Source: Tardiphaga sp. 709
GTDB lineage: Bacteria > Pseudomonadota > Alphaproteobacteria > Rhizobiales > Xanthobacteraceae
Length of the DNA: 64,000 nt
Direction of reading: 5' to 3'
Assembly: GCF_032401055.1 (NCBI RefSeq)
Contig: NZ_CP135529.1
Span: forward strand, 2,294,001-2,358,000
Positions within the stretch are counted from its first letter, which is position 1, and every line of letters starts with the position of its first letter. The notes below the pieces were generated by a model, which ran no database searches, was not told the DNA's origin, and saw nothing but the letters and a program-made list of their open reading frames with translations. Both the position numbers and the translations under genes were made by a program. Below are positions 15,583-46,836 of this stretch, piece after piece.

Positions 15583-15651
15583 GTATATTGATTAAGGTCA
15601 AGCCGTCGATGAACGGCAGTGCCAAGTGAAACAAATGAACCGGAGGGAACG

Positions 15652-16875
15652 ATGTACAGAAAATTGGTAGCAGCGGCTTTTTGCAGTGCGATAGCGATGT
15701 CAAACGGCAGCGCACGAGCCGACATCTCGGGCGGCGTCGTTCGGGTTGGCGTGCTCAACGACATGTCTGGAATTTTCCAGGACACCAACGGGCCGGGTTC
15801 GGTGGAAGCCGCGCGGATGGCCGTCGAGGACTTCGCCGGCGGCGGCAAGGATCTAAAGGTCGAAATCATATATGCCGATCATCAGAACAAGCCCGACGTC
15901 GCGACGGCGATCGCTCGCCGGTGGCTTGATGTCGAGGGCGTCGACGCGATCGTCGATGTTCCCAACTCGGCCGTCGGCCTCGCGCTGAATTCGCTGCTGC
16001 GCGGAACAAAGATGACGCTTCTCGCATCCAGCACGGCGACGTCGGACATGACTGGACAGTTCTGTTCGCCGAACACCGTGCAATGGGTCAATGACACTTG
16101 GGCGTCTGCCCGTGCGACGACGTCTGCGATGGCGAAGCGCGGCGGCAAGAGCTGGTATTTTCTCACCGCTAACTTCGCGCTCGGCATGGCCCTGGAGAGT
16201 GAGGCAACGTCCTTCATCGTGGCCGAGGGAGGCAGCGTCAAAGGGTCAGCACGTCATCCGTTCGCGACGGCCGACTTCTCATCGTTTCTGCTGAGTGCTC
16301 AAGCTTCGAAGGCAGACGTTGTCGGGCTGGCGAATTCGGGAACGGATACGATCAACGCGATCAAGCAGGCCGACGAGTTTGGCGTGAGCCGCGGCGGCCA
16401 GTCCCTGCTCGCCTTTCTGATCTTCATCAATGATATTCATTCGATCGGACTAAAGACAGCGAGCGGCCTTCTGCTCGTCGAGTCGTTCTACTGGGATATG
16501 AACGACGAAACGCGCGCCTTCGCGAAGCGCTTCGCGGCGCGGATGGGCGGCAAAGTCCCGAGCGCGAACCATGCCGGCGTCTATTCGTCCACCCTCGCTT
16601 ATCTGCGCGCGGTCGCAGCGGGCGGATCGGACGAGGCGAAGGTCGCCGTTCCGGAAATGAAACGCGCTCCGATCAAGGATTCGCTTTTCGGCGAAACGAC
16701 GGTGCGAGCCGACGGCCGCGCCGTGCATCCTATCTATCTTTTCCAGGTCAAGCGGCCGGAAGAAAGCCGCTACCCCTTCGACTACTACAAACTCATCGAT
16801 ACCATTTCGGCCGAGGCTGCGTTCAGGCCTCTCAACGCCGGAAACTGTGCCTTGGTCCAGGGGGCCGCGAAGTGA
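15652..16875 (+). CDS. Periplasmic binding protein of a HAAT-type ABC importer (orphan)
   Basis: About 407 residues starting at 15652, where GGAGGG sits eight bases upstream. A Sec signal peptide ends at SARA. The mature protein is a type I periplasmic binding fold of the LivK/Peripla_BP_6 kind (VGVLNDMSGIFQDTNGPGSVEAARMAVED). No permease or ATPase genes follow; the ligase gene comes next. It probably captures the aromatic acid that starts the pathway and would need permeases encoded elsewhere, perhaps those at 36961-40582. Confidence 0.9.
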   Translation: MYRKLVAAAFCSAIAMSNGSARADISGGVVRVGVLNDMSGIFQDTNGPGSVEAARMAVEDFAGGGKDLKVEIIYADHQNKPDVATAIARRWLDVEGVDAIVDVPNSAVGLALNSLLRGTKMTLLASSTATSDMTGQFCSPNTVQWVNDTWASARATTSAMAKRGGKSWYFLTANFALGMALESEATSFIVAEGGSVKGSARHPFATADFSSFLLSAQASKADVVGLANSGTDTINAIKQADEFGVSRGGQSLLAFLIFINDIHSIGLKTASGLLLVESFYWDMNDETRAFAKRFAARMGGKVPSANHAGVYSSTLAYLRAVAAGGSDEAKVAVPEMKRAPIKDSLFGETTVRADGRAVHPIYLFQVKRPEESRYPFDYYKLIDTISAEAAFRPLNAGNCALVQGAAK

Positions 16876-16886
16876 GAGGACCACGA

Positions 16887-18557: not shown

Positions 18558-19603
18558 ACCAACAGAACATCTTGAAAAATAGCGTCGATCGCAGCGAATT
18601 CTATCAGAAGCTCGATTCCCTCAACCTAGCGCCTTTATGGGAGGTGTTGAAAGGCCTCGTTCCGTCCGATCCTCGACCGACGGCGACACCTTACGCCTGG
18701 CATTGGTCGATCGTCCGCCCGCAGTTGCTTGCGGCAGGCTCGTCCATCAGTGCCGAGGAGGCCGAGCGGCGCGTCTTGGTGCTCGAAAATCCTGCGCTGC
18801 GCGGACGCTCGCAGATCACCGATACACTTTATGCCGGATTGCAACTCATCCTGCCTGGCGAAGTCGCCCCCGCCCACCGTCACACCCAATCGGCGCTGCG
18901 GTTCGTCCTAGAAGGTGACGGCGGGTATACCGCGGTCGCAGGCGAGCGGACCATGATGCACCGTGGCGATCTCATCCTGACCCCATTCTGGACCTGGCAT
19001 GATCACGGACACGACGGCGACGGTCCCGTGATCTGGATGGACTGCCTCGACGTACCGCTCGTCGGCTTCCTGAAGACGGGCTTCCGCGAAGAGCACCAGG
19101 ACTCGGCTCAGGCCATGACGCGCCCGGAAGGATATTCCGAGGCGCGCTTCGGAAGCGGGCTGCTTCCGGTCGAATATCGTCCGGAATCATTGACCTCGCC
19201 GATCTTCAACTATCCTTATGCGCGGACGCGCGAAGCTCTGCACCGCCTCGCGGGCACCGGCGAGATCGATCCCCATCACGGCATTTGCCTCCGATACGTC
19301 AATCCGGTGAATGGCGATTGGGTCATGCCGACCTTGGGACCGACCATGAGGCTTCTTCCGGCGGACTTCTCGACGGCAAAATATCGTTCGACCGACAGCG
19401 CAGTCTTTGTCGTGCTCGAAGGCGAAGTCGAGATCGCTGTCGAGGGCCGTCCGCCCGAGATCCTGCAAGAGAATGGCGTGTTCTCGATGCCAGGCTGGAG
19501 CCCCTACACGATCCGCGCGCTCAAAGGCGACTGTGTTCTGTTCTCGTTTTCGGATCGACCGGTTCATGAGAAACTGGGCCTGTTCCGCGAGGAAAAACAC
19601 TAG
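18554..19603 (+). CDS. Gentisate 1,2-dioxygenase
   Basis: 349 residues, the normal size of bicupin gentisate dioxygenases. The first cupin contains PAHRHTQSALRFVLEG (about 105-120), giving the His-x-His Fe(II) ligands, and a later third His is in WTWHDHGHD. The second cupin spans about residues 260-340. It opens the ring of gentisate with O2 to form maleylpyruvate. ATGA overlap with the ligase stop shows coupling, and AAGGAA precedes the start. The CoA ligase, FMO and thioesterase nearby mean gentisate is made by a CoA-bound route. Confidence 0.93.
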   Translation: MNQQNILKNSVDRSEFYQKLDSLNLAPLWEVLKGLVPSDPRPTATPYAWHWSIVRPQLLAAGSSISAEEAERRVLVLENPALRGRSQITDTLYAGLQLILPGEVAPAHRHTQSALRFVLEGDGGYTAVAGERTMMHRGDLILTPFWTWHDHGHDGDGPVIWMDCLDVPLVGFLKTGFREEHQDSAQAMTRPEGYSEARFGSGLLPVEYRPESLTSPIFNYPYARTREALHRLAGTGEIDPHHGICLRYVNPVNGDWVMPTLGPTMRLLPADFSTAKYRSTDSAVFVVLEGEVEIAVEGRPPEILQENGVFSMPGWSPYTIRALKGDCVLFSFSDRPVHEKLGLFREEKH

Positions 19604-27924: not shown

Positions 27925-28379
27925 ATGAGCGCCATGCGTACCTATAGCTATGAGCGTGGGTTGCACTGGAGCGAATGCGACCCGGGCGGGATTGTTTTTT
28001 CCCCGAACTACGCGCGCCGGATCGTCGATGGCCGGAGCGAGATGTTCTTTCTGTTGGGTTTTGACCCCAACAAGATCGATGAAGCGAGAGCGCGTCGAGG
28101 CCTGCCCGTCCTTCGGTTGGTGATGGGACTTCACAGATCCCCGACGCTCCATCAAATCGTGACGCACAAATTCAACGCGAAAATGGGCGGCGACAAGTCA
28201 CTATCCTTTCGCCGCCGTTTTCAACGGTCGGCGATCTGCTGATGGAAGAAGAGGACGTGCGCATCTGGACGGCGCCGGCCTAAGACGATCCCGCCGCGAT
28301 CAAGACGTCGCGTGTCCCCGACGACATTCGCGCAATCCTCGACCGCAACGATCAGCTGCAAACGACACGAAACGCTTGA
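27925..28379 (+). pseudogene. Broken 4HBT-family thioesterase
   Basis: The first ~95 codons encode a hotdog thioesterase start (WSECDPGGIVFSPNYARRIVDG, with the catalytic Asp) like the intact gene at 14249. After SLSFRRR, around 28213, the reading frame is lost. The family C-terminus continues in another frame (VGDLLMEEEDVRIW), hits an in-frame TAA at 28281, then resumes as AAIKTSRVPDDIRAILDRND to a TGA at 28377. One frameshift plus one nonsense codon separate it from an intact gene. It leads directly into the BKACE gene 13 bp later, as in carnitine-type operons where a thioesterase accompanies BKACE. Confidence 0.78.
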
Positions 28380-28392
28380 ACGGAGAGCCAAC

Positions 28393-29274
28393 ATGGCCAG
28401 CAACAAAGTAATCGTCACGATCGCGCCGACCGGAGGAATGGCCAAAAAGTCGCAGAATCCAAATCTGCCGACGCAGCCCGAGGAAATTGCCGAAAGCGTA
28501 CGGCGCTGCCATGACGCCGGAGCGTCGGTCGCGGCTTTGCATGTGAGAAGGCCGGACGACGAGGCAACCTGCAATGCCGACATCTACCGTCGCCTGAACG
28601 ATCTGGTCCGCGAGCGCTGCGACATCGTGATCAACAACTCGACCGGAGGCGGCGTTGACGGCGACATGCTGATCGAGCGTCCCGACGGTCTCTTCGACGT
28701 CAACTTCGACGAGCGCATGAAGGGTCTGGATGGCGGCGCTGAGATGGCGACCTTCGACTGTTTTACCGTGGCAGCGATGCATGGCAAGCGCGAGATGCTC
28801 GTCAGCACGACACCCAGCCAATGCGACAGACTCGCGGCCCGGTTCAGGGAAAAGGGCATCAAGCCGGAATGGGAAGTCTTCAGCCCAGCCCATATCTTGC
28901 AGGACGTTACCCGGCTGATCGCCGCCGGGTGCGACAAGCCGCCGTATTACATCAACATGGTATTGAATGCCGACCGCGGGTTTCAGGGGGCGATGCCTTA
29001 CACCCCGGACATCCTGCAATCGATGGTTCGACTCCTGCCGAAAGACTCCATCTTTTGCGTTTCCGCCATCGGCACCGCCCAGCTTCCTGCGACGACGCAC
29101 GCGATTCTGCTGGGGGGGCACGTCAGGGTCGGGCTTGAGGACAACCTTTACTACAGCAAGGGCGTGATGGCGACGAACGAGATGCTTGTCGAGCGTCAGG
29201 TCCGTATCATTCGCGAACTGGGATTCGAGCCGGCAACTGCGGCGGAAGCCCGAGACATGCTCGGTCTGGCGTAG
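28393..29274 (+). CDS. BKACE family beta-keto acid cleavage enzyme
   Basis: About 293 residues, TIM-barrel family (formerly DUF849, 3-keto-5-aminohexanoate cleavage enzyme). Family segments include the N-terminal TIAPTGGM, NNSTGGGVDG and VGLEDNLYYSKGVMA, whose Glu corresponds to a Zn ligand. The usual VHLHVRDP metal site reads AALHVRRP here (about residues 46-53): the first His ligand is Ala and the following Asp is Arg. The enzymes cleave a beta-keto acid with acetyl-CoA to a new acyl-CoA and a CoA ester. The start is ATG 28393 with GGAGAG upstream. The altered site suggests an unusual substrate or changed chemistry. Confidence 0.88.
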   Translation: MASNKVIVTIAPTGGMAKKSQNPNLPTQPEEIAESVRRCHDAGASVAALHVRRPDDEATCNADIYRRLNDLVRERCDIVINNSTGGGVDGDMLIERPDGLFDVNFDERMKGLDGGAEMATFDCFTVAAMHGKREMLVSTTPSQCDRLAARFREKGIKPEWEVFSPAHILQDVTRLIAAGCDKPPYYINMVLNADRGFQGAMPYTPDILQSMVRLLPKDSIFCVSAIGTAQLPATTHAILLGGHVRVGLEDNLYYSKGVMATNEMLVERQVRIIRELGFEPATAAEARDMLGLA

Positions 29275-29276
29275 AC

Positions 29277-30299
29277 ATGGCGCCGCTCGCTCCACTGTTG
29301 CCGCTTGAAGAGATCGCCGTCGTCGGGCTCGCCGGGGCCGGGTCGGTCGGCACGGCTTGGGCCGCGCTCCTCTTGTACGCCGAGTTCGACGTCGTTGTGT
29401 TCGACCCGGACCCGCAGGCGCCCCGGCGCGTCCGCGCCGGTGTCGAGGCGGCGTGGGACACGTTCCGGCAGCTCCGCCAAGAGGCTCCGGCATCGCCGCC
29501 ATTGGCTCGCCTGCGTTTTGTCGAGACGCTTGAAGCCCTGGCGGCTGACAGTGACCTCGTCCAGGAGAATGTGACCGAGGCCATTGATGTCAAAGGCAAG
29601 GTGATATCGGAGATCGACCGATACCTCGCGCCGGACCGGCTCATCCTGTCCAGCAGTGGCGGCGTTCCCCCGACCCGCATGCAGGAATATTGCGTGCATC
29701 CGGAGCGGCTGGTGCTGGGACATCCGTTTCATCCCGCGCATGTCATTCCTCTCGTCGAAGTACTGGGAGGCGACAGGACCCGTCCGGACGCCGTGGTCCT
29801 GGCCAAGGCCTTCTATCAGAAGCTCGGAAAGCGTCCGATCGTTCTGCTGAAAGAACGCGTCGGACATCTCTCGAACAGATTGCAATTTGCGTTGCTCCGG
29901 GAGGCCATCAATTGCCTCAACGAGGGCGTCGCCTCGGCCGATGACATTGACGCCGCCGTCCGCTGGGGATTGGGCCTGCGTTGGGCGTTGATGGGCCCTC
30001 TGATGACCCTCAATCTCGCGGGCGGAGACGGCGGCATCGAGCAGATCCTGAGCCGATTCAAAGGCGATGTGGAGCTGTGGTGGGCGTCCCTCGGACAGCC
30101 GACGCTCACTCCCGACGTTTGCGAAAGTCTTCGCAAAGGAGTCGAGCAATTGCGTGGCGACCGCAGCAATGCGGAGTGGTCGAAGTGGCGCGACGAGCAG
30201 CTCATCGAGCTGCTGACCTTCCGGCAAGGACATCCGTATCCGGACGAGACGGCGGTCGACCCGTCCGCCGGGAGCGCGAACGTCGCGGTGTCATCATGA
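29277..30299 (+). CDS. 3-hydroxyacyl-CoA dehydrogenase family, L-carnitine-dehydrogenase-like
   Basis: 340 residues. The N-terminal Rossmann NAD site is GAGSVG (about residues 20-25) followed by DPDPQAPRR. LSSSGGVPPTRM and GHPFHPAHVIPLVEV carry the catalytic region typical of carnitine dehydrogenases. The C-terminal dimerisation domain starts near RVGHLSNRLQFALLREA. It oxidises a beta-hydroxy acid or acyl-CoA to the keto form. Immediate linkage to BKACE (2 bp) matches carnitine operons in which this pair makes and cleaves a beta-keto acid. The acyl-CoA genes downstream suggest a non-carnitine substrate here. Confidence 0.9.
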   Translation: MAPLAPLLPLEEIAVVGLAGAGSVGTAWAALLLYAEFDVVVFDPDPQAPRRVRAGVEAAWDTFRQLRQEAPASPPLARLRFVETLEALAADSDLVQENVTEAIDVKGKVISEIDRYLAPDRLILSSSGGVPPTRMQEYCVHPERLVLGHPFHPAHVIPLVEVLGGDRTRPDAVVLAKAFYQKLGKRPIVLLKERVGHLSNRLQFALLREAINCLNEGVASADDIDAAVRWGLGLRWALMGPLMTLNLAGGDGGIEQILSRFKGDVELWWASLGQPTLTPDVCESLRKGVEQLRGDRSNAEWSKWRDEQLIELLTFRQGHPYPDETAVDPSAGSANVAVSS

Positions 30300-32032
30300 G
30301 CGCAGACTACAGATATCATGCTGATGTGATCCGGAGGCATATTGCCCTGGTCCCCGGCTACGACGCCCTCCGTCAACGCCTGTCCGTCGACGTCGACGTC
30401 GGTGCCGATACGCTGGCGCAGGTGCTCGACGCTGCCGCCGTGTTTGCGGAGGACGTCCTGGCGCCCATCAATCGCGCCGGCGATCTGGAAGGCTGCCGAT
30501 TCCAGGACGGCCGGGTGTTGTCGGCGCCCGGCTACAGCGGCGCCTGGAAGCAACTGGCCGAGGCAGGCTGGCTCGCTGTCGACCAGCCGGCCGAATATGG
30601 CGGACAAGGCCTGCCTTCGTTTGTCAACGCTGCGTGTCGTGAGCTGTTCGATTGCGCGTGCATGGCCATCGGGATGCTCAGCGGACCCACGCGGGCCGCC
30701 ACCCAGGTGCTGCTTGAATTCGGCGAGAAGGCAATCTGCGACGAGTGGATCCCGCGTTTCGTGACTGGTGAGTGGTCGGCAACGATTTGCATCTCCGAGG
30801 CCGATGCCGGCTCGGATGTGGGACGCATCCGATCGCGCGCCTTGCCCGCTGGCGACGGCTCGTGGCTCGTGACCGGCGAGAAAATGTGGACGTCGTTCGG
30901 CGACAACGATCTTGTTGAGCGCATCGGGCATTTCCTGCTGGCCAGGACACCCGATGCGCCCCCGGGGAGCGCTGGTCTGAGCCTGTTCTTGGTGCCTAAT
31001 CGCGTACGGGACGCCGACGGTGACTGGGTTTCCAATGGAGTAACCCCAAGGCGCATCGAGGAAAAGCTTGGCCTGCACGGTTCGCCTACCTGTGCCATGG
31101 GGTTCGAGCAAGCACGAGCCCATTTGATCGGACATCCACATCGTGGTCTGTCCCAGATGTTCGTCATGATCCAAGGCATGCGTCTGATGGTGGCAATCGA
31201 GGGCGTCGGCATGGCGTTCGGCGCGGTGCAGATGACGCAATCCTATGCGGAAACGCGAAAACAGGGCGGTGATCCGGCGGTGCCGCCGGTGCCGATCGCC
31301 CGCCATGCGGACATCCAGCGTCAAATTCTTGGCATGGCTTCACGCGTCGAAGTACTGCGCGGGCTCGTATACGAGATTGCGGTGCGGCTCGACGCGGAGC
31401 GGATGGCGGTCGACGAGCCAACCGGGCGAGAGGCGACGCGTTCGCGCATGGTGACGCAGTGGCTGCTGCCGATCATCAAGGCCAGTTGCGCCGAGGCGGG
31501 CTTCGAAGTGCCAAATGAGGGCATTCAGGTGCTGGGCGGCGCCGGCTACACACGCGAGTGGCCCCTGGAACAATGGATGCGCGACGCCCGCATGATGTCG
31601 ATCGCCGAGGGATCAACCGGCATTCAGGCGCTGGACCTAGTGCACCGCCGGCTCAGGCGGGATCGTGGCGAGAGCCTGGCGGCATTCCTGGACACCGCGA
31701 CGGGCGAAATAGCGTCAGCGGATCCAGGCCTGGCGACGTCAGCGCTTTCAGTGCTCGATCGGTTGCGCAAGATCGGCGCGGCATTTCTCGATCCGCAATC
31801 GCGTCCGCGGGACGCCGAAGCTGGAGCGGTGGCCTTTCTGAACGTCGCGATGCTCGCTGCCACCGCGTGGATCGCCGTCCGGCTGGCATCCGACGACAAG
31901 GACGATGCGATTGCAAAACGATTGGCCGCCTGCGGACGGTACTGGCTCAGCGATGTCGATCTCAAAGCCGCTCAGCAAGAAAAACTTGCCCTGATCGGAG
32001 CCGCCCGATTGGCGGAGTACGAATATCTTTAA
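30296..32032 (+). CDS. Acyl-CoA dehydrogenase, long (DmdC/FadE-like) form
   Basis: About 578 residues. An N-terminal helical extension (YRYHADVIRRHI) is followed by the standard domains: AEYGGQGLPSF, ICISEADAGSDVG (flavin/substrate), GEKMWTSFGDND, IEEKLGLHGSPTCAM, then VLGGAGYTREWPLEQWMRDA and SIAEGSTGIQALDL with the catalytic Glu. The start ATG at 30296 overlaps the previous stop (ATGA). It introduces a 2,3-double bond into an acyl-CoA. The product would feed the enoyl-CoA hydratase encoded 13 bp downstream. Confidence 0.92.
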   Translation: MSADYRYHADVIRRHIALVPGYDALRQRLSVDVDVGADTLAQVLDAAAVFAEDVLAPINRAGDLEGCRFQDGRVLSAPGYSGAWKQLAEAGWLAVDQPAEYGGQGLPSFVNAACRELFDCACMAIGMLSGPTRAATQVLLEFGEKAICDEWIPRFVTGEWSATICISEADAGSDVGRIRSRALPAGDGSWLVTGEKMWTSFGDNDLVERIGHFLLARTPDAPPGSAGLSLFLVPNRVRDADGDWVSNGVTPRRIEEKLGLHGSPTCAMGFEQARAHLIGHPHRGLSQMFVMIQGMRLMVAIEGVGMAFGAVQMTQSYAETRKQGGDPAVPPVPIARHADIQRQILGMASRVEVLRGLVYEIAVRLDAERMAVDEPTGREATRSRMVTQWLLPIIKASCAEAGFEVPNEGIQVLGGAGYTREWPLEQWMRDARMMSIAEGSTGIQALDLVHRRLRRDRGESLAAFLDTATGEIASADPGLATSALSVLDRLRKIGAAFLDPQSRPRDAEAGAVAFLNVAMLAATAWIAVRLASDDKDDAIAKRLAACGRYWLSDVDLKAAQQEKLALIGAARLAEYEYL

Positions 32033-32045
32033 CGAAAGCGATCAC

Positions 32046-32822
32046 ATGCAGTCCGACAACCATATCACTTACGAGCTGCGGGGAAACATCGCCCTGATCG
32101 GAATCGATCGGCCCGAGAAGCGCAATGCGATGAGCCAGGTGATGTTTGAAGCGCTCGGTCGCGCAGCGGCGCGCGCTCACGAAGAAGCCCGCGTCGGCAT
32201 CCTGCACTCGCACAACGACAATTTCTCTGCCGGTCTCGATCTTGGTGAACACCTCGGGCGCGACCCCATCGAGAGCATGCACGACTCGCGTGCGCAGCAC
32301 GTACTTCTCAACACCGTCGAGCAGGGGAAAATACCATTCATCGCCGCCCTGCAGGGAGCGACAATCGGTGCCGGCCTGGAGATCGCTGCATCGGCCCACA
32401 TTCGTGTTGCTGACGAGTCGACGTTCTTCGCGCTCCCGGAAGGCAAGCGCGGCATCTTCGTCGGCGGCGGGGGGTCCGTACGCGTCTCGCGCCTGATGTC
32501 GACCACCCGGATGATGGAAATGATGCTCACGGCCCGGGTGCTGAACGTTCAGGAGGCTGCCGGTGCCAATCTCGTGCACTTCATCACGCCCGTCGGAGGC
32601 GCGCTTGCCAAAGCGCTGGAACTGGCCGCCGGTATCGCGACGAACTCGCCGGTTTCGAACTATGCAATCATCAACGGATTGCCGCGCATCCACGATGCGT
32701 CGCATGACGACGGCTTGTTTTTCGAATCTATCCTCGCGTCTTTGACGCTGGTCAGTCCTCACGCCCAGGCCGGGTTGCGCGAGTTCCTGGAAAAGCGCGC
32801 TAAGAGACTCGTCCCGGAATGA
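32046..32822 (+). CDS. Enoyl-CoA hydratase/isomerase (crotonase) family
   Basis: 258 residues with the crotonase fold. IGIDRPEKRNAMS is the first conserved strand, FSAGLDLGEH and GATIGAGLEIA form the oxyanion hole, and ALPEGKRGIF carries a Glu near residue 138 in the catalytic region. It hydrates 2-enoyl-CoA to 3-hydroxyacyl-CoA, the step before the dehydrogenase encoded at 29277. Together with the acyl-CoA dehydrogenase it gives a complete beta-oxidation half-spiral without a thiolase; BKACE may take that role. Confidence 0.9.
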   Translation: MQSDNHITYELRGNIALIGIDRPEKRNAMSQVMFEALGRAAARAHEEARVGILHSHNDNFSAGLDLGEHLGRDPIESMHDSRAQHVLLNTVEQGKIPFIAALQGATIGAGLEIAASAHIRVADESTFFALPEGKRGIFVGGGGSVRVSRLMSTTRMMEMMLTARVLNVQEAAGANLVHFITPVGGALAKALELAAGIATNSPVSNYAIINGLPRIHDASHDDGLFFESILASLTLVSPHAQAGLREFLEKRAKRLVPE

Positions 32823-32868
32823 CTGCGCCAAAACAGCAATTCGACGTCTCCCAATTTAGGCATGCATC

Positions 32869-34017
32869 ATGAAGATCAAGATACTCGGTGGTGGCCCAGC
32901 CGGACTTTACGCTGCCTACCTGATCAAGCGTCAGCGACCAGCGGCTGATGTCGTCGTCTTCGAGCAAAATGCCGCAGGTGTGACCTTCGGGTTCGGCGTG
33001 GTGTTCTCGGACAAGGCATTGGAGTTTCTTGGCGCTGCAGACGCTGAAACGCTGCGCCTCATTACAGAGGACCTTGAAACCTGGAGCGACATCGAGGTCA
33101 GGATTCATGGCGAGTCGATCAAGATCGATGGCGTCGGCTTCACGGCGATCGCCCGATTGAAGCTCCTCGAAATCCTTCGGATGCGCGCCCTTTCCGTTGG
33201 CGTAACGTTGATCGACGAGCGGACGATTTCGGATCTCAGGGAATTGGGAGAGGCAGACCTGATCATCGGTGCGGATGGGGCCAATTCGCTTGTACGCCGG
33301 ACGCACGAGGCGGCCTTCGGCACTGAGGTTTCTCTCCTGAATAATCACTTCGCTTGGTTTGGCACGACCAAGACGTTCAACTACCTCACCCAGACCTTCA
33401 AGTCCCTCCCACAGGGACACTTTAACGCGCACCACTACCGTTACTCGAAGGATATGAGCACGTTTCTCGTGGAGGTCGATCAGTCAACGTTCGATGCCGT
33501 CGGCTTCGGCGGGATGACGGAAGAGCAGTCGCGCGCCTGTTGCGAGAAGGTGTTCGCCGAGGAACTGGACGGGCACCCGCTGGTCACGAACCGATCCCTG
33601 TGGCGGCAATTCCCGAAAGTCAGCAATCGGCACTATTACACGGCAAACATGGTCCTGGTCGGCGATGCGCTGAGGACCGCTCACTATTCGATCGGCTCGG
33701 GGACGCGGTTGGCGCTTGAGGACGTGCAGGCGCTTGCGGCCGCGCTTGTACAACATCCGCATAGCGTATTGGATGCGCTGGCATCGTTCGATGCGAAGCG
33801 ACGGCAGGTCATCGAAAAGATGACCGATGCGGCGGCGCAAAGCGCCGATTGGTACGATCAGTTTGCCGATCACATGGGGCTTGAGGCCTGGCCGTTCGCG
33901 ATGAGTTACATCGGCCGGTCCGGCCGGATAGACCCCGCGCGTTTGAAAGCAATGTCGCCCCGCTTCGTCGCTGGTTACGAACACTGGAAGGGCCGATCGG
34001 CAAAGGTGCGGCAATGA
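32869..34017 (+). CDS. FAD-dependent aryl-CoA monooxygenase (paralogue of 13081 gene)
   Basis: 382 residues, collinear with the FMO at 13081 over its whole length. Both carry VTFGFGVV, IDG-GFTAIARL-LL-IL, FNAHHYRYSK, and GDALRTAHYSIGSGTRLALEDVQAL in the FAD site. GGGPAG is near residue 8 and GADGANS near 130. Like its paralogue it lacks the C-terminal reductase domain of 2-aminobenzoyl-CoA monooxygenase/reductase. It probably hydroxylates an aromatic acyl-CoA. The next gene, a CoA ligase, overlaps it by 4 bp. Confidence 0.83.
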   Translation: MKIKILGGGPAGLYAAYLIKRQRPAADVVVFEQNAAGVTFGFGVVFSDKALEFLGAADAETLRLITEDLETWSDIEVRIHGESIKIDGVGFTAIARLKLLEILRMRALSVGVTLIDERTISDLRELGEADLIIGADGANSLVRRTHEAAFGTEVSLLNNHFAWFGTTKTFNYLTQTFKSLPQGHFNAHHYRYSKDMSTFLVEVDQSTFDAVGFGGMTEEQSRACCEKVFAEELDGHPLVTNRSLWRQFPKVSNRHYYTANMVLVGDALRTAHYSIGSGTRLALEDVQALAAALVQHPHSVLDALASFDAKRRQVIEKMTDAAAQSADWYDQFADHMGLEAWPFAMSYIGRSGRIDPARLKAMSPRFVAGYEHWKGRSAKVRQ

Positions 34018-35591
34018 TCGGATCGGTCATCGATCGCACGAAAGAGAGCGAGCCACCAACAACATTCGGCGACGTCATTCGTCGTCAGCGGAGGCTCGGC
34101 GGAAAGATCGCGTTCTCCGACCCGTCGCGCGAGGTTTCCTTCGCGGAATTCGATGATCGGGTTAACCGCTTGGCCGATGCCTTGCGGTCGAGAGGGCTGC
34201 AGGCCGGCGATCGGATCGCGCTGCTCGGGCGCAACAGCATTTCCCTGCTGGAATACATCGGAACGATGAAGGCGGGACTCATACCGGTCCCGCTCAATTG
34301 GCGGCTGTCGACACAGGAGCTCTCGGTTCTGATCCACGACTGTAGTCCCAAGGCGCTGGTGTGCGACATGGAAGGCGCCATCGTTGCAGATCAGATGGCG
34401 CTGGCATTGATGCCCCTGCGTGTTTGTGTCGATGGCGACCGCCAGGGTTGGCTCAACCACGAGGATCTCATCCGAGCTGGCAGCAAGGGCGAAGCGCATC
34501 TCGTGCTGGACGCGGACGATACGGCGCTCCTCGTCTACACGAGCGGCACGACCGGTGCTCCGAAGGGAGCGATGATCACCCATGGCGGCCTGCTCGCGAA
34601 CTGCGTCGCGTCGGCGGAGCGGGCCATTGAAGTGGATGAAACGGACGTCATTCTGTGCGCGATGCCGATGTTCCATGTTGGCGGGCTTTGTTACTACCTG
34701 CTAGCGGCGTTTGCGGCGGGCAGTACGTCAATCCTGAGGCCAGCGTTCGACGCGGCGGACGTCGTCGCTAGCTTGGAGCGCTTTGCCATTACCAACGTCC
34801 ACCTCGTCCCCACGATGATTGCAGACCTGATTGCGCAGGATGGTGCGGCGGCTGCAGCGCGGTCGCTGCGGCGCATCGTCTACGCGGGATCGTCGATGCC
34901 TCTCGCTCTCTTGCATCGCGCCATGAATACGTTCAGCGAGGTCAGATTCTCCCAATCATACGGGTCGACGGAGGGCGGCCTCATATCGTGTCTGTCCCCG
35001 GACGATCATGCGCTTGCTTCGGCATCCAGAGAGCAAGCCCACCTTCTCCAATCTTGCGGCAACGTCATAGCCGGGTGCGAGATACGCGTCGATAACAACG
35101 AGGGCAGAGAGGCGGCGGAGGGCCAGCTCGGGGAGGTCCTGGTGCGAAGCCCCCGCATGATGAAGGGATACTGGAAATCACCGGATAAGACGGCCAGCGT
35201 GATGAGAGGGGCCTGGCTCTGTACCGGCGACATCGGCTATCGCGACGCGGCCGGCTACCTCTATCTCGTCGATCGCAAGAACGACATGATCGTGACTGGC
35301 GGCGAAAACGTGTTTCCGTCCGAGGTGGAGCAGATTTTGCTGTTGCACCCGGACGTGTCCGAAGCGGCCGTGTTCGGTCTTCCCGATGATCGATGGGTGG
35401 AGAAGGTCGTTGCGGCAGTCGTGTTGCGCGGTGGATCGACGGTCACCGACGCAAGCCTGATCGCATTCACCAAGCGACAACTTGCATCGTACAAGTGTCC
35501 AAAAGAAATTTTCGTGCTGGCGAAACTCCCGACAACGGGCGTCGGCAAGATCTCCCGCAAAATCCTGAAGGACCAAGTCCGGTCACTCTGA
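34014..35591 (+). CDS. Acyl/aryl-CoA ligase (adenylate-forming)
   Basis: 525 residues. LLVYTSGTTGAPKGAMITHG (phosphate loop) is near residue 172, QSYGSTEGG near 314, LCTGDIGYRDAAGYLYLVDRK near 402-420, and TGVGKISRKIL with the catalytic Lys near 507. Motif style is that of the medium/long-chain and aryl-CoA ligases, unlike the DhbE-type ligase at 16887. The start overlaps the FMO stop (ATGA). It would activate the acid imported by the ABC system encoded next. Cinnamate-, phenylpropionate- or anthranilate-type acids are possible; sequence alone does not decide. Confidence 0.9.
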   Translation: MIGSVIDRTKESEPPTTFGDVIRRQRRLGGKIAFSDPSREVSFAEFDDRVNRLADALRSRGLQAGDRIALLGRNSISLLEYIGTMKAGLIPVPLNWRLSTQELSVLIHDCSPKALVCDMEGAIVADQMALALMPLRVCVDGDRQGWLNHEDLIRAGSKGEAHLVLDADDTALLVYTSGTTGAPKGAMITHGGLLANCVASAERAIEVDETDVILCAMPMFHVGGLCYYLLAAFAAGSTSILRPAFDAADVVASLERFAITNVHLVPTMIADLIAQDGAAAAARSLRRIVYAGSSMPLALLHRAMNTFSEVRFSQSYGSTEGGLISCLSPDDHALASASREQAHLLQSCGNVIAGCEIRVDNNEGREAAEGQLGEVLVRSPRMMKGYWKSPDKTASVMRGAWLCTGDIGYRDAAGYLYLVDRKNDMIVTGGENVFPSEVEQILLLHPDVSEAAVFGLPDDRWVEKVVAAVVLRGGSTVTDASLIAFTKRQLASYKCPKEIFVLAKLPTTGVGKISRKILKDQVRSL

Positions 35592-35674
35592 GCGTCTGCG
35601 GCAATTAACTCAAGCCAACAATGTCAATCGCGATAAATGCGAGCATTCAAAAACATCAATCGGAGGATTCGAGC

Positions 35675-36817
35675 ATGAGACATTCGGCAAAGTCGGCGTT
35701 GTACGCCACGGCTACTTTGGTCCTACTGTCAGGGACCGCGACGGCAGACGTCAAGGTGGGCGTGATCACCGGAGCGACCGGCCCCGGAGCGTCCCTCGGC
35801 ATCCCCTACAAAAACACATTCAGCGCCTTGCCAGCCACTCTTGGCGGTGAACCGGTGACGTATATCGTTCTGGATGACGCGACCGATCCGGCGACTGCCG
35901 CGCGCCTGGCGCGCAAGCTTGTCAGCGAGGACCATGTCGATCTGCTGATCGGGTCCGGAAATGTCCCGACCGCGTCGGCAATCAGTTACGTCGCGTCGGA
36001 AACCAAGACGCCTCAGATCGCCCTGTCTCCGCTCAGTGGCGAACCGGCCAAGAACCCGTGGGTCTTCTCGGTGTCCCTGCCAACGACGCTGCAGCTCGGT
36101 GCTGTCGCGGACGACATCAAGGCACGTAACGCAAAAACCGTCGGTTACATTGGCTTCAGCGACGGCTGGGGCGACCAGGTCTACGCGGCGTTGATGAGCC
36201 ACGCGGCGGCGGCCGGCTACACGGTCGTCACGAATGAAAGATACGCGCGGCTCGATACGAGCGTGGTGAGTCAGGCTCTCAAGGTCATCGCGGCAAAACC
36301 GGATGCCGTGGTCCTCGGCGGCTCGGGTACGCCCGGAGCATTGCCACATACGACGTTGGTCGAGCGCGGCTACAAGGGACAGATCTACCACAGCGCTGCA
36401 GTCGTCAACCCCGACTTCCTTCGAATTGGCGGCAAGGCCCTGCAAGGCGCCCTCGTTGCTGCAGGCCCCGTCGTCGTCGTCAGTCAGCTTCCGGACAACA
36501 GTCCCACAAAGAAACCCGGCCTGGACTTCGGCCGTGCCTACGATGCGAAGTTCGGAGCCAACACGAACAATTCGTTCTCCGCCTATTCCTGGGACGCGTA
36601 CCTGATCGCGGACCGGGCGGTCAACGTGGCCCGCGCAAAGGCCAAGCCGGGTACGCCCGAATTCCGGGAAGCCTTGAGAGATGCCATGGAGGGCACCACC
36701 GAGCTTCGGGGCGCGCAAGGCGTGTACACGATGAGCGCATCCGATCACGCCGGCTCCGACAAACGCGCAGTCGTCCTTCTGCGCATCGTGGATGGGGCCT
36801 GGAAACTCGCCCAATAG
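35675..36817 (+). CDS. HAAT-type ABC importer substrate-binding protein
   Basis: About 380 residues. ATG 35675 has GGAGGA upstream. The signal peptide ends near TATA, then VKVGVITGATGPGASLGIPYKN begins a LivK-like type I binding fold. It lies between the ligase gene and the permease genes, so it is the receptor of a complete importer (36961-40582) dedicated to this pathway. The ligand is probably the aromatic or aryl-alkanoic acid that the ligase activates. Confidence 0.92.
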   Translation: MRHSAKSALYATATLVLLSGTATADVKVGVITGATGPGASLGIPYKNTFSALPATLGGEPVTYIVLDDATDPATAARLARKLVSEDHVDLLIGSGNVPTASAISYVASETKTPQIALSPLSGEPAKNPWVFSVSLPTTLQLGAVADDIKARNAKTVGYIGFSDGWGDQVYAALMSHAAAAGYTVVTNERYARLDTSVVSQALKVIAAKPDAVVLGGSGTPGALPHTTLVERGYKGQIYHSAAVVNPDFLRIGGKALQGALVAAGPVVVVSQLPDNSPTKKPGLDFGRAYDAKFGANTNNSFSAYSWDAYLIADRAVNVARAKAKPGTPEFREALRDAMEGTTELRGAQGVYTMSASDHAGSDKRAVVLLRIVDGAWKLAQ

Positions 36818-36960
36818 GCAACGCCGCTCATTGAATTGTCGTTCCGGGAACAATCGCGGGAAATTGGCCTGACCGTGGTCGGGCGTGTGACGCGAAGCTG
36901 GACTTCGCGCAACGTCCGGTCCGAACCATTGCCGATCGTTCTGCTAGATGGAGCCGTGTT

Positions 36961-37998
36961 ATGGATCTGACTGTAGGCTCGATGCTTGCTGTTGACGGAA
37001 TCTCGAACGGCGCGGTGTACGCGTTGATCGGGCTGGCGACCGTGCTGGTTTTCAGCGTGACGAGGATACTCTTTATCGCGCAGGGGGAGTTCGTCGTATT
37101 CGGGGCGATCACCCTGGCGCAAATCAATGCCGGGAGCGTGCCGTCGGCAATCTACCTGCTCGGGACATTGACGCTGGGCTGCCTGTTGCAGGAGCTCTGG
37201 CTGGCCTGGCAACGGCGGCGAGTCGATCGCCGGCTGGCGCGGGAGCTCGCCCGAGTCCTGTTGCCGTCGAGCTTTATTATCGCAGTGACCGTCTTGGCTG
37301 CCCCGGTGGGTCTTCCACTGATACTGCAAGCATTGTTGTCGCTGATGCTGATAGCGCCAATGGGCATGCTTGTCTATCGACTGATCTATCGCTCGATTGC
37401 GGACGCCAGCGTCCTGACGCTGTTGATCGTGTCGGTCGGTGTGCACTTTGCTCTGGTCGGGCTGGGCCTGATCTTCTTCGGTCCTGAAGGCTATCGAACG
37501 TCTGCTTTGTTGGATGTGTCGGTCCAGCTCGGGTCGGTCCCGGTCAGCGGTCAGGCCATCGTCGTGATCGTGACCGCACTTCTCCTGATATCGCTCCTAT
37601 TCTGGTTCTCGACCTGCACCTTTCCAGGAATGGCGCTGCGGGCCGCGGCGGTGAACAGATTGGGAGCGCGCATCGTGGGGCTTTCGAGCGATAGAGCCGG
37701 ACAGACGAGCTTCATTCTTGCCGCCGCGATTGGCGCGTTGTCGGGAATCCTTATCGCCCCGACGACGACGCTGTACTACGACACGGGATTTTTGATCGGC
37801 CTGAAAGGATTTGTGGCTGCGGTCTTCGCGGGCCTGTCAAGCTTTCCAGGCGTCATGATTGGAGCCATCGGAGTGGGCCTTTTGGAGTCGTTCGGCTCGT
37901 TCTGGTCCAGTGCGTTCAAGGATTCGATCGTATTCGGTGCTGTCATCCCGGTTTTGCTGCTGCGCACCATTCTCACGCGGACTCAGGAAGATCATTGA
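36961..37998 (+). CDS. ABC importer permease, LivH type
   Basis: 345 residues, mostly hydrophobic, with the LivH start NGAVYALIGLATVLVFSVTRI and a late GLSSFPGVMIGAIGVGLLES segment. An unusual basic stretch (about residues 80-100, WQRRRVDRRLARELARV) sits between the early and middle membrane helices and makes this longer than the usual ~290. The gap to the binding-protein gene is 143 bp. Confidence 0.9.
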   Translation: MDLTVGSMLAVDGISNGAVYALIGLATVLVFSVTRILFIAQGEFVVFGAITLAQINAGSVPSAIYLLGTLTLGCLLQELWLAWQRRRVDRRLARELARVLLPSSFIIAVTVLAAPVGLPLILQALLSLMLIAPMGMLVYRLIYRSIADASVLTLLIVSVGVHFALVGLGLIFFGPEGYRTSALLDVSVQLGSVPVSGQAIVVIVTALLLISLLFWFSTCTFPGMALRAAAVNRLGARIVGLSSDRAGQTSFILAAAIGALSGILIAPTTTLYYDTGFLIGLKGFVAAVFAGLSSFPGVMIGAIGVGLLESFGSFWSSAFKDSIVFGAVIPVLLLRTILTRTQEDH

Positions 37999-38000
37999 GC

Positions 38001-39842
38001 ATGACCATCGTGACATCTCGATTACTTCGAACCGGACCGCGCCTGCCGTCCGACGTCTGGAGCCGCGCGGCAGTCCGCTGCGTCGGATTTGCCGTGCTTG
38101 GTCTCTTGATCGTGCTGCCATTCCTGCCGATACCTGGATTTGTCATCACGCAGATGAACTACATCGGCATTGATGCGCTGGTGGTCCTGGGATTGGTGCT
38201 GCTGACGGGCGTCGCGGGTCTCACGTCGTTTGGTCAGGCCGCGTTTGTCGGGATCGGCGCCTATACAACGGCCTATCTCTCGACCGCGTTCGGCCTGTCG
38301 CCCTGGATCGGCCTGCTTGCAGGACTGGCTTTAACTACCGTGACGGCCTTGGTTGTCGGCTTCGTCACCCTGCGAATGTCCGCACTCAATCTGCCGCTCG
38401 CTACCATCGCCTGGTGCATCGCACTGTATTATGTGGTGGGAAATCTGGATGCGCTCGGCCGCTACGATGGCCTCGTCAACATTCCGCCGCTCGAACTGGC
38501 CGGCTTCAGCCTGCAGGATGGCAGACGGTTTTATTTCTTGATCTGGGGAATGGCGGTTTTATCGGCGGTGGCGATGGTCCGGCTGCTTGACTCGCGGACT
38601 GGTCGGGTCATGCGCGCGATCAACGTCGATCGTGGAGGTGGGGCCACCATGCCGGAGTCCCTTGGCGCGTCTGTCTTCAGACACAAGCTGTTGGCCTTCG
38701 TGATAGCGGCTCTCCTTGCATCGGTTGCCGGATGGCTTTTTGCACACATGCAGCGAACCGTGAATCCGTCTCCGTTCGGCATCGGCCGTAGCCTCGATTA
38801 TCTTTTCATGGCGGTTCTCGGAGGCGTTGGCCACATCTGGGGCGCGTTCTTAGGCGCGGCGTTCACGACAGTGCTCAAGGATCTGCTTCAGGACTGGTTG
38901 CCCCGCCTGTTCGGATCAGCCGGCAGCTACGAGATCGTTGTTTTCGGCGTCCTTCTCATCGTGGTGCTCAAGATCGCACCCGGCGGTCTCTGGTCGATCG
39001 TGGAGCGAATGTGGCGGTCACCGCGACCCAGGCGGGATTGGGAAGATGCGCCCCCGCTCCTTGATCGGCCGAAGCAAGTCCCCGGCCAAGCGCTTCTCCG
39101 GGTCGAAGCTGTCAGCAAGCGGTTTGGCGGGCTGGCCGCCGTCCAAGATGTCACCTTCACGGTCGGCAGTGGCGAAATCGTCGGCCTGATTGGTCCAAAC
39201 GGCGCCGGAAAGTCCACGACGTTCAACCTGATATCCGGCGTCACACCCTTGTCCACCGGGCGGGTCACCGTAGGTGGCGAACGTGTGGACGGCCAACCGT
39301 CCCGCCGCATCGCCAGGCTTGGCGTTTCTCGCACGTTCCAGCACGTCAAGCTCGTCCCCGACATGACGGTACTGGAGAATGTCGCGATGGGTTGCATCCT
39401 GCGGACGCGCGCAGGGGCATGGTCGTCGATCCTGCATCTGGACCGGGCGGAAGAAAGATCCACGATGAAGGAGGCCGAGCGGCAATTGGCACGAATCGGA
39501 TTGTCGTCGGTGATGTTCGATCTCGCCGGAAATCTTGCTCTTGGTCCTCAACGGCTTGTCGAAATCGCACGCGCCCTGGCGACCGATCCCGTTCTATTGC
39601 TCCTCGACGAACCCGCTGCGGGACTGAGACACGCGGAAAAAGCCAAGCTCGCGGATGTTCTGAGCCAGTTGAAGGACGAGGGCCTCAGCCTGTTGCTGGT
39701 CGAGCACGACATGGATTTCGTCATGCGCCTGGCTGATCGAATCGTGGTGATGGAATTCGGCAAGAAGCTCATCGAAGGAACTCCGGCGGAGGTCCGCGCC
39801 AGTCCGTTGGTAAGAGCAGCTTATCTAGGGACGGATCATTAA
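38001..39842 (+). CDS. ABC importer permease-ATPase fusion (LivM-LivG)
   Basis: About 613 residues. Residues 1-340 are a LivM permease (GLTSFGQAAFVGIGAYTTAYLS, GGVGHIWGAFLGAAF). A linker of basic residues leads to a LivG-type ATPase (about 365-613) with Walker A GPNGAGKST, Walker B LLLLDEPAAGL and the H-switch VEHDMDF. The signature reads NLALGPQRLVEIARAL instead of an LSGGQ-like form. The start is ATG 38001 (AGGAAG upstream); a TTG at 37995 overlapping the preceding stop is unlikely. Such fusions occur in HAAT systems but are less common than split genes. Confidence 0.92.
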   Translation: MTIVTSRLLRTGPRLPSDVWSRAAVRCVGFAVLGLLIVLPFLPIPGFVITQMNYIGIDALVVLGLVLLTGVAGLTSFGQAAFVGIGAYTTAYLSTAFGLSPWIGLLAGLALTTVTALVVGFVTLRMSALNLPLATIAWCIALYYVVGNLDALGRYDGLVNIPPLELAGFSLQDGRRFYFLIWGMAVLSAVAMVRLLDSRTGRVMRAINVDRGGGATMPESLGASVFRHKLLAFVIAALLASVAGWLFAHMQRTVNPSPFGIGRSLDYLFMAVLGGVGHIWGAFLGAAFTTVLKDLLQDWLPRLFGSAGSYEIVVFGVLLIVVLKIAPGGLWSIVERMWRSPRPRRDWEDAPPLLDRPKQVPGQALLRVEAVSKRFGGLAAVQDVTFTVGSGEIVGLIGPNGAGKSTTFNLISGVTPLSTGRVTVGGERVDGQPSRRIARLGVSRTFQHVKLVPDMTVLENVAMGCILRTRAGAWSSILHLDRAEERSTMKEAERQLARIGLSSVMFDLAGNLALGPQRLVEIARALATDPVLLLLDEPAAGLRHAEKAKLADVLSQLKDEGLSLLLVEHDMDFVMRLADRIVVMEFGKKLIEGTPAEVRASPLVRAAYLGTDH

Positions 39843-39844
39843 AG

Positions 39845-40582
39845 ATGGCCACATCGATTCTGGAGGTCGGCGGCCTGTGCGCCGGCTACGGCAAGGCCCG
39901 CGTACTGGAAGGCGTGTCGCTGCGCGCAGGACATGGTCAAATCGTTTCAGTGCTCGGTCCCAATGGCGCCGGCAAGTCGACCCTGCTCAACTCTCTCGGG
40001 GGCGTCATGCCGTCGGAGGGCACTGTAGTCTTCGATGGCGAGGACATTTCGACGTGGCCTCTCGAAGAACGGGTCATGGCCGGTGTGGCGCTGGTCCCGG
40101 AGAAGCGCGAATTGTTCGGGACCATGACCGTCGAGGAAAATCTCTTGCTCGGGGGACAGCGGCCGAGGTCGCTCGGGGACCGTGCCTGGCGCGACGGACT
40201 TGAACCCGTCTACGCGTTGTTTACACGATTGAAGGAACGCAGGCGACAGCAATCGAACACTTTGTCGGGCGGTGAGCGGCAGATGCTGGCGATCGGCAGG
40301 GCGCTCATGAGCCGACCGAAACTGCTTCTTCTCGATGAACCCAGTCTCGGCCTCGCGCCTCTGATCGTTCAGGACATCATGCAGACGATCTCACGTCTTT
40401 GCGGCGACGGCCTGAGCGTTCTGCTCGTCGAGCAGAACGCTCGCGCGGCACTGGAGATCTCCCACTACGGGTATGTCCTCGAGATGGGTAGTTTCTTCGT
40501 GCAGGGAACCGCAGATGTCCTCCGGTCCGACGAAAGGCTCGTCGCGACATATCTCGGCAACGAAAAGCCGACAAGAAATTGA
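39845..40582 (+). CDS. ABC importer ATPase, LivF type
   Basis: 245 residues. Walker A GPNGAGKSTLL, signature LSGGERQMLAIGRALM, Walker B LLLLDEPSLGLAP and switch LLVEQNARAAL are all intact. It starts 2 bp after the fusion gene and forms the second nucleotide-binding subunit of the importer. Confidence 0.93.
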   Translation: MATSILEVGGLCAGYGKARVLEGVSLRAGHGQIVSVLGPNGAGKSTLLNSLGGVMPSEGTVVFDGEDISTWPLEERVMAGVALVPEKRELFGTMTVEENLLLGGQRPRSLGDRAWRDGLEPVYALFTRLKERRRQQSNTLSGGERQMLAIGRALMSRPKLLLLDEPSLGLAPLIVQDIMQTISRLCGDGLSVLLVEQNARAALEISHYGYVLEMGSFFVQGTADVLRSDERLVATYLGNEKPTRN

Positions 40583-40774
40583 CAGGGAGCTTCGCATGCT
40601 TCTTCAACAACGATCGTGTCGGTAGCTATCCGCAACCCGGCTGCCTGAATGATGGATCGGCGCCGGTCGCCTCGAATCGTTCGCGCGTGCCCGGTTCCTT
40701 CGACGGAGATTGACATTTCCCCGGCTCATCGTCATTCAACCTTGGACGTCAAAAGCGCGTGGCTGGTGGGTCGA

Positions 40775-41368
40775 ATGGCTAAGCGGACTGTTGTTGAAAC
40801 AAAAAAACGGCGGGTGGCTGTCGGGACAGCCAAGACCAAATCCACCGACTTTCATCTGAACGAGTTGCTTCCGTACCTCATCAATCGTGTAGCCAACGCC
40901 ACGACTCAGCTCTTCGCCCGAGATATTGCCCCATTTGACCTGAGCGTGCCCATGTGGCGCGTCATTGCAGTGCTTTCAGAGATGGGTGAGCAACGACTAG
41001 TCGATCTTGCGACCATGACGTCAATTGACGCCTCGACGCTCTCTCGATTGGTCGAGACCATGCAAGCCGATAAACTTCTCGCAAAAGTGCGATCAAAGAC
41101 AAATCGACGGGAATTGGTTTTGACCGTTGCGCCACGCGGCAAAGAGCTGTCCAGACTTCTGGCTCCGGTTGCGCAAGCCTATGAGACCCGGTTGACTGCA
41201 GGCCTGCCCGAGTCCGAGCTCGCCACGGCGCGAAAGGTTCTAAAGCATATGTTTCATCAGCTTTCGGAACTCAAAGCGCAGGCGGACCTCGACTCGAGAG
41301 CTACTCGTCGACAAACGCCAGTACTTGCAAAGACCTTGCTTCGATCGAGATCGTCGGCAAAGTCATAA
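40775..41368 (+). CDS. MarR-family regulator closing the second CoA cluster
   Basis: About 197 residues. The start is set at ATG 40775, leaving a basic N-terminal tail (MAKRTVVETKKRRVAV); a longer frame from 40649 adds an unlikely leader. The core (LPYLINRVANATTQLFARD, then SIDASTLSRLVETMQADKLL, then RSKTNRRELVLTV) is collinear with the MarR protein at 19674. The two CoA clusters therefore end with paralogous regulators. Aryl acids or their CoA esters are likely effectors (inference). Confidence 0.9.
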   Translation: MAKRTVVETKKRRVAVGTAKTKSTDFHLNELLPYLINRVANATTQLFARDIAPFDLSVPMWRVIAVLSEMGEQRLVDLATMTSIDASTLSRLVETMQADKLLAKVRSKTNRRELVLTVAPRGKELSRLLAPVAQAYETRLTAGLPESELATARKVLKHMFHQLSELKAQADLDSRATRRQTPVLAKTLLRSRSSAKS

Positions 41369-44100: not shown

Positions 44101-44101
44101 G

Positions 44102-46813: not shown

Positions 46814-46836
46814 GCAAATAGATGGGGAGGAGTAAA

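Follow-up and report, generated by a model that had tools for sequence, protein, structure and literature searches.

A BKACE-containing operon of Tardiphaga sp. 709 that may shorten aryl-propanoid side chains and feed a salicylate/gentisate module

How might a bacterium shorten the side chain of an aromatic C6-C3 acid without a thiolase? Known routes from such acids to the benzoyl level use retro-aldol cleavage, a thiolase or a beta-ketoacyl-CoA hydrolase. The question is raised by an operon at positions 28393-41368 of a 64,000-nt stretch of the genome of Tardiphaga sp. 709 (NZ_CP135529.1, 2,294,001-2,358,000), here called the window, in which a gene of the BKACE (beta-keto acid cleavage enzyme) family is combined with beta-oxidation-type genes, a monooxygenase, a ligase and an importer. 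A first-pass annotation had proposed that the operon imports and activates an aryl-propanoid, shortens its side chain with BKACE in place of a thiolase and passes an aryl-CoA to a gentisate module. This interpretation is largely supported: the pathway logic is backed, and the exact substrate can only be inferred.

The operon holds eleven intact genes, for which 28393 (BKACE) and 30296 (acyl-CoA dehydrogenase) are the most likely starts. They are listed with the basis of each assignment; L numbers denote loci of the comparison described further below.

28393..29274, + strand: BKACE-family enzyme (PF05853), Pfam 271.3 bits
29277..30299, + strand: 3-hydroxyacyl dehydrogenase (HAD), nearest L-carnitine dehydrogenase and lambda-crystallin (Pfam, NCBIfam, Protein Data Bank (PDB))
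30296..32032, + strand: acyl-CoA dehydrogenase (ACAD), 578 aa (Pfam)
32046..32822, + strand: crotonase/enoyl-CoA hydratase (ECH), NF006013 above cut-off
32869..34017, + strand: single-domain FAD monooxygenase FMO2 of aroyl-CoA type, salicylyl-CoA 5-hydroxylase-like (NCBIfam, tree)
34014..35591, + strand: acyl/aryl-CoA ligase (LIG) (Pfam; top PDB match 8wev)
35621..36817, + strand: ABC solute-binding protein (SBP) of the aromatic-acid family, nearest 7ylt, then R. palustris proteins
36961..37998, + strand: ABC permease 1 (Pfam)
37995..39842, + strand: ABC permease 2 fused to an ATPase (Pfam)
39845..40582, + strand: ABC ATPase (by eye from the translation; 74% homologue in L009)
40649..41368, + strand: MarR regulator (Pfam; a 45% homologue adjoins the gentisate dioxygenase in L009 and L010)

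The Pfam families found were BKACE, 3HCDH_N/3HCDH, Acyl-CoA_dh, ECH_1, FAD_binding_3, AMP-binding, Peripla_BP_6, BPD_transp_2, ABC_tran and MarR. As had been noted from the letters alone, the genes run in one direction with tight spacing: all lie on the + strand with intergenic gaps of -10 to +66 bp (from -4 if ACAD starts at 30296), and the sole larger gap, of 143 bp, separates SBP from the first permease. The full ABC importer is likewise present, with the correction that its second permease and one ATPase are a single fused gene (37995-39842). The set had also been said to lack a thiolase and a ring-cleavage gene, and this holds: no thiolase was found among the ten operon-region proteins scanned with NCBIfam and Pfam, nor in the ATPase (by eye) or the MarR regulator, and no ring-cleavage gene was found among the operon genes.

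Ring cleavage would be provided by a second group of genes (13081-19603), whose gentisate 1,2-dioxygenase lies approximately 9 kb upstream of the operon.

18554..19603, + strand: gentisate 1,2-dioxygenase (GDO), TIGR02272 465.5, above the cut-off of 442.1
16872..18557, + strand: ligase like salicylate/2,3-dihydroxybenzoate(DHB)-AMP ligases (LIG2) (PDB; below NCBIfam cut-offs)
15619..16875, + strand: solute-binding protein of the salicylate/gentisate module (family scan)
14677..15528, - strand: fumarylacetoacetate-hydrolase family protein (FAH) (family scan)
14249..14680, - strand: intact 4HBT-type thioesterase TE1 (family scan, reading frame)
13081..14247, - strand: monooxygenase FMO1, 53% identical to FMO2

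At E ≤ 0.001, the 6.36-Mb genome has no TIGR02272 match other than GDO. The top PDB match of LIG2 is a salicylate-AMP ligase, and it is also close to 2,3-DHB-AMP ligases.

We read the operon, with slightly less than even confidence, as a feeder of this module that takes up an ortho-hydroxylated C6-C3 acid and shortens its side chain; melilotate (3-(2-hydroxyphenyl)propanoate), o-coumarate or both are the likeliest substrates. After ABC import and CoA ligation of the acid, ACAD would oxidise it to o-coumaroyl-CoA, which ECH would hydrate to the 3-hydroxyacyl-CoA (3-hydroxy-3-arylpropanoyl-CoA). CoA would then be lost through a 4HBT thioesterase or the crotonase, HAD would oxidise the free 3-hydroxy acid with NAD to salicyloylacetate, and BKACE would convert this, with acetyl-CoA, to salicylyl-CoA and acetoacetate, replacing thiolysis. 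FMO2 would hydroxylate salicylyl-CoA at position 5 to gentisyl-CoA, from which TE1 would release gentisate for GDO and FAH. An ACAD in the operon is accounted for because the substrate would be saturated melilotate; o-coumarate could join the pathway one step later. CoA probably leaves before HAD acts, since BKACE needs a free beta-keto acid and HAD is nearest to free-acid or alcohol dehydrogenases. Its best NCBIfam model is L-carnitine dehydrogenase (NF005471; 252.3, below the cut-off of 414), and in the PDB it comes closest to FHMPC dehydrogenase and lambda-crystallin, relatives that presumably all act on free acids or alcohols. By eye, the crotonase keeps the two Glu residues of the hydratase site.

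The aromatic nature of the substrate, preferred to a carnitine-like one by the first-pass annotation, is suggested by the protein families at the entry to the pathway. SBP resembles solved binders of aromatic acids (B-III; 7ylt 3.1e-106, 3tx6 1.6e-93, 4jb0 3e-93), and the best PDB match of LIG is a feruloyl-CoA synthetase (8wev). The proposal of melilotate or o-coumarate thus stands as to the aromatic type and is more tentative as to ortho or meta hydroxylation and a saturated or unsaturated side chain.

FMO2 bears on the position of the ring hydroxyl. This protein of 382 aa scores 375.1 against the model of the bifunctional salicylyl-CoA 5-hydroxylase (NF006101, cut-off 1078) and aligns with its N-terminal half only, so that it falls outside that equivalog and may act similarly. 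In a tree without the duplicate rows (L032, L010, L009 and L076) and without L089 and L090, which belong to the window itself, the single-domain FMO2 subfamily stands apart from the longer two-domain hydroxylases, one of which (L091, in an 817-aa frame) is also encoded in this genome. FMO2 clusters with FMO1 and the monooxygenases of L009 and L010 (rows L107 and L108; four rows, support 95/93). Because the latter two lie near salicylate/DHB-AMP-type ligases, salicylyl-CoA is moderately favoured over 3-hydroxybenzoyl-CoA as the substrate. The other Bradyrhizobium branch (L110/L111) has a neighbouring GDO (scanned at L115), and the ligase beside L110 belongs to the benzoate-CoA-ligase family (487.8 bits against 375.25), with 3-hydroxybenzoate-CoA ligase as its second model.

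The link between side-chain and gentisate genes was followed in the best 80 of 91 loci with a related BKACE, a match being at least 30% identity anywhere in the locus; many loci end at contig ends and the counts are lower bounds. A GDO homologue was present in five, FMO in 12, and HAD, ACAD, ECH and LIG together in four. Both subunits of a 3-oxoacid CoA-transferase, which could use acetoacetate, occur in four of the 80 (families checked for L032). In L009 and L010 (Bradyrhizobium) and L012 (Pseudomonas cuatrocienegasensis), BKACE-HAD-ACAD-ECH-LIG has GDO, FAH and a thioesterase (TE) in the 8 kb upstream of it. The gentisate module of L009 and L010 is contiguous with the BKACE operon, a single full-length monooxygenase of FMO1 type serving both (L010 has an extra short FMO-like match, 41%), and in L012 the genes follow as GDO, FAH, TE, BKACE, HAD, ACAD, ECH and LIG. 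Together with the single GDO of the window genome, this linkage backs the hand-over to the gentisate module that had been proposed at first. More partial sets are found in L032 (BKACE-FMO-LIG with GDO, FAH and divergent CoA-transferase genes) and L076. The 20.9 kb of L076 lack beta-oxidation genes and hold BKACE, FMO, TE, FAH, a homologue of GDO, maleylacetoacetate isomerase and what looks by eye like a transporter. The Methylobacterium locus L027 (4081-11000) lacks ACAD and has TE, a ligase, SBP and ECH in divergent orientation to HAD-BKACE; it and similar Methylobacterium loci, of which only L027 was viewed closely, look like an equivalent logic for an unsaturated cinnamate. BKACE-FMO pairs also occur in eight loci of proteobacterial metagenome-assembled genomes, several marine by name (L048, L049, L055, L057, L070, L071, L075 and L080), with a GMC-type oxidoreductase (by eye) nearby, housekeeping genes around and no GDO.

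A number of observations weigh against the proposed route, and several of these concern BKACE itself. The protein matches PF05853 over the full domain (positions 1-274; 271.3 bits, cut-off 24.8). We take the zinc ligands of Kce to be a His-x-His motif and a Glu, and assume the roles of these and the other active-site residues. An alignment of 85 clade rows covers 81 places and 73 distinct sequences, with three rows for the window and two rows each for two loci. Ala replaces the first His of the HxH motif in every clade row; all six other BKACEs aligned have the His. The second His, the Glu, the Arg and the Asp of the site are kept across the clade, which also has its own invariant residues, among them Cys57, Trp157 and Asn185 (counting residues from base 28402; window and L009-L088). 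The position of Kce Tyr145 is occupied by Phe in 85 of 85 rows, and by Phe in three, Ala in two and Tyr in one of the six others. Tyr145 of CcaKce is reported to be catalytic and to be carried by BKACEs, and its change to Phe in BsfD was linked with a different, non-cleaving chemistry (PMC12871164). Since Phe is also found in three of the six other BKACEs, this change is a warning and not a refutation; it does lower confidence in the proposed route and brings a non-cleaving alternative into consideration. The two replacements together make the BKACE reaction less certain, and canonical acetyl-CoA-dependent cleavage of a beta-keto acid is not assured here. As the first zinc-site His is absent from every clade row, the enzyme is filed in a distinct clade and not as a canonical Kce-type enzyme. 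The earlier claim that BKACE replaces a thiolase is accordingly retained in part: a family gene is present and a thiolase is not, but two Kce catalytic positions are changed and a free beta-keto acid would first have to arise from a CoA ester. A single-sequence structure model of BKACE (pLDDT 40.9) supports no claim.

The release of CoA is the next weak point, as the operon's own thioesterase is broken.

27925..28242, + strand: broken 4HBT-type thioesterase (TE2) (reading frames, identity to TE1, TE homologues before BKACE)

This frame had first been taken for BKACE and is instead the front of a thioesterase, with 43% identity to TE1 over 96 aa, although the front piece alone gave no Pfam match. 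Near 28200 the reading frame shifts, and the continuing frame runs into a stop, so that TE2 looks like a pseudogene and the step would depend on TE1 or another enzyme. A thioesterase homologue immediately precedes BKACE in L011 and L012.

Further points on the same side come from scores and from other loci. BKACE, HAD, ACAD, FMO2 and LIG score below NCBIfam cut-offs among the matches listed, and the branch of the window FMO2 is long (0.46). With 262.2 (L032) and 268.2 (L076), the GDOs of two loci fall below the gentisate cut-off, and no GDO was found in eight of the 12 FMO-bearing loci. At E ≤ 1e-40 no FMO was matched in the genome of L012, and this locus carries a VanA-type Rieske oxygenase instead, for which reason its ring chemistry probably differs from that of the window; the Rieske gene and a reductase (by eye) stand directly before GDO (5411-8578), and it is possible that the former replaces FMO. 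In L054, HAD-ECH-ACAD-BKACE occurs without FMO or GDO, and the side-chain set is therefore not bound to salicylate. Salicyloylacetyl-CoA tends to lactonise to 4-hydroxycoumarin, and avoiding this would be a possible gain of the detour through a free acid and BKACE; the gene content of L054 weakens that idea as well. SBP, finally, is closest to 7ylt, which is apparently IadK2, an indole-3-acetate binder, as seven of eight published pocket residues fit this chain at one offset (at position 125 it reads Ala against Thr in PMC10374108). SBP keeps five of the eight (168, 172, 199, 308 and 311) and differs at 104 (Ser to Val) and 126 (Asn to Pro); indole acids are possible ligands.

Gentisate would likewise be the end product if the substrates were meta-hydroxy acids (3-(3-hydroxyphenyl)propanoate, m-coumarate), BKACE yielding 3-hydroxybenzoyl-CoA and FMO2 acting as a 6-hydroxylase to give gentisyl-CoA. 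We hold this to be unlikely, though to be taken seriously. It draws on L110, a member of the FMO2 subfamily that adjoins a benzoate/3-hydroxybenzoate-CoA-ligase-like gene and GDO, and on the BKACE-linked monooxygenase of L076 (row L109), which falls on the L110 side (94/94) with a long, unsure branch. FMO2 itself groups, on its long branch, with FMO1 and L107/L108, whose gene clusters have the salicylate/DHB-AMP-type ligase. It is quite unlikely, in our view, that the neighbourhood is a loose one, in which the operon handles another aryl-propanoid or a directly imported aroylacetate while FMO2 and the gentisate genes are there for a different substrate. The placement of FMO2 within the operon, 46 bp after ECH and with a 4-bp overlap with LIG, and the recurrence of the GDO linkage in both Bradyrhizobium and Pseudomonas argue for a joint function; L054, the absence of beta-oxidation genes from L076, and 15 loci, mostly of Methylobacterium, in which HAD adjoins BKACE without FMO or GDO (L016-L019, L022-L030, L037 and L042) pull the other way.

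The remaining alternatives alter the chemistry more deeply. A BKACE that does not cleave, and performs a BsfD-like acetyl transfer or another Claisen-type reaction while shortening is done elsewhere, would suit the two active-site changes, His to Ala and Tyr to Phe, the latter with the precedent of BsfD (PMC12871164). We judge it very unlikely beside the occurrence of Phe in other BKACEs and the catabolic setting of thioesterases, CoA-transferases and ring-cleavage genes. An ortho-amino version, from 2-aminobenzoylacetate to anthraniloyl-CoA and its 5-hydroxylation, is also very unlikely and if anything slightly more so. Aroyl-CoA monooxygenases of the FMO2 kind include anthraniloyl-CoA monooxygenases, and the kinship of SBP to an apparent indole-3-acetate binder would agree; GDO, however, scores above the gentisate cut-off and far below that of 5-aminosalicylate dioxygenase (243.6 against 650), which makes the anthraniloyl-CoA pathway named as an option by the first-pass annotation less likely, and no Rieske or other indole oxygenase is among the operon genes. 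Catabolism of carnitine or a similar quaternary amine through a thioesterase, BKACE and carnitine dehydrogenase has next to no likelihood. The pairing of HAD with BKACE is the carnitine pattern and L-carnitine dehydrogenase is the best model of HAD, but the score is far below the cut-off, SBP and the ligase are nearest to aromatic types, and the context is one of FMO and GDO. A search with HAD across its class (385 genomes) matched ten genomes at E ≤ 1e-70, its own included; at ten other class HAD loci of 2.6-3.9 kb each, HAD stood alone or, in three of the ten, had a BKACE homologue of low identity (28-35%) no more than approximately 1.5 kb away, and no second full operon was seen.

Among the wider relatives of the window's genome the BKACE clade is rare. 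At E ≤ 1e-60 it was found in three of 101 same-family genomes, the window's included, and in none of 17 other genomes of the genus; the two further same-family genomes have no operon in the 19.9 kb around each gene. A megablast search of plasmids with 28402-36817 gave no match. In ten sphingomonad-type loci, including those of Sphingobium bisphenolivorans and Croceicoccus bisphenolivorans, a biotin carboxylase cluster lies near the clade BKACE, and a phosphatase cluster does so in nine; most of the ten add biotin carrier, carboxyltransferase and phosphatase clusters and a thioesterase (Pfam names for L034 only). These loci resemble the Hpe/Acv sets for carboxylation of hydroxyacetophenones (PMC9618137), and in SYK-6 the hydroxyphenyl-beta-keto acid of the hydroxyacetophenone route is converted by VceA/VceB (PMC9618137; PMC11837543). 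Judged by such neighbourhoods, the substrates of the clade are likely to be aroylacetates.

Two other features of the window may be mentioned. The interval 41937-49488 carries a second ABC importer and, after it, genes for a haem aldoxime dehydratase (PF13816) and a nitrilase-family protein, which probably form an aldoxime-nitrile-acid pathway; in L076, too, a nitrilase-like gene lies close to BKACE. Between the two aromatic modules, 21826-25464 encodes a single-chain protein of the indolepyruvate:ferredoxin oxidoreductase family (1212 aa).

Parts of the proposed pathway recur in known systems. L-carnitine catabolism combines carnitine dehydrogenase, BKACE and a thioesterase; it shares the free 3-hydroxy acid, the 3-keto acid and BKACE with acetyl-CoA, but its substrate is another, and the ligase, ACAD, FMO and active-site changes are peculiar to the window operon. 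SdgA-D of Streptomyces WA46 reportedly take salicylate to gentisate via CoA. They share a salicylate-AMP-type ligase, a salicylyl-CoA-hydroxylase-like FMO, a thioesterase and a gentisate dioxygenase with the upstream module; the BKACE operon would open another way into it, at salicylyl-CoA. In Sphingobium SYK-6, VceA is presumably a BKACE homologue. There too a hydroxyphenyl-beta-keto acid is converted by VceA/VceB (vanilloylacetate to vanillate), the second enzyme being a vanilloyl-CoA/syringoyl-CoA thioesterase (PMC9618137; PMC11837543), but the source of the keto acid there is propiophenones or acetophenones of lignin origin, whereas in the window the ligase, ACAD, ECH and HAD would make it. 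The CouL/CouO and Hpe route of Rhodococcus also shortens coumarate/ferulate or hydroxyphenyl-beta-ketopropionates without a thiolase, by a beta-ketoacyl-CoA hydrolase that acts on the CoA ester, and no BKACE is named for it (PMC9618137). A BKACE-family gene stands in an aromatic cluster in the beta-ketoadipate pathways of Methylobacterium and Ralstonia, as it does here, but is proposed to act after ring cleavage (PMC8963497; PMC6449761), while that of the window would act before it, on an aryl keto acid. BsfD of the DUF849 family has Phe for the Kce Tyr like the window enzyme and differs in serving phosphonate (flavophos) biosynthesis by acetyl transfer (PMC12871164). The SBP resembles IadK2 of the Variovorax auxin operon iad, in which the Rieske dioxygenase IadDE acts on auxin (PMC10374108); the window operon has no Rieske dioxygenase, unlike iad, and an auxin reading was set aside.

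The first-pass annotation knew of no described pathway with this exact gene content, and none was found in the open-access papers searched; subscription papers lay outside the search, which makes this weak evidence of novelty. It is a rather doubtful claim, but one that we put forward, that CoA-ester steps, a CoA drop, a free aroylacetate, an altered-site BKACE that reloads CoA on the aryl carbonyl and hydroxylation of the aryl-CoA in place make up an undescribed shortening strategy. If true, the BKACE route would be a further way to shorten C6-C3 acids, as a variant of known aryl-propanoid catabolism, and would mark out a clade of BKACEs that handle aroylacetates with an unusual active site. 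It would also make the CoA-dependent catabolism of coumarin/melilotate genetically accessible in Bradyrhizobium and its relatives.

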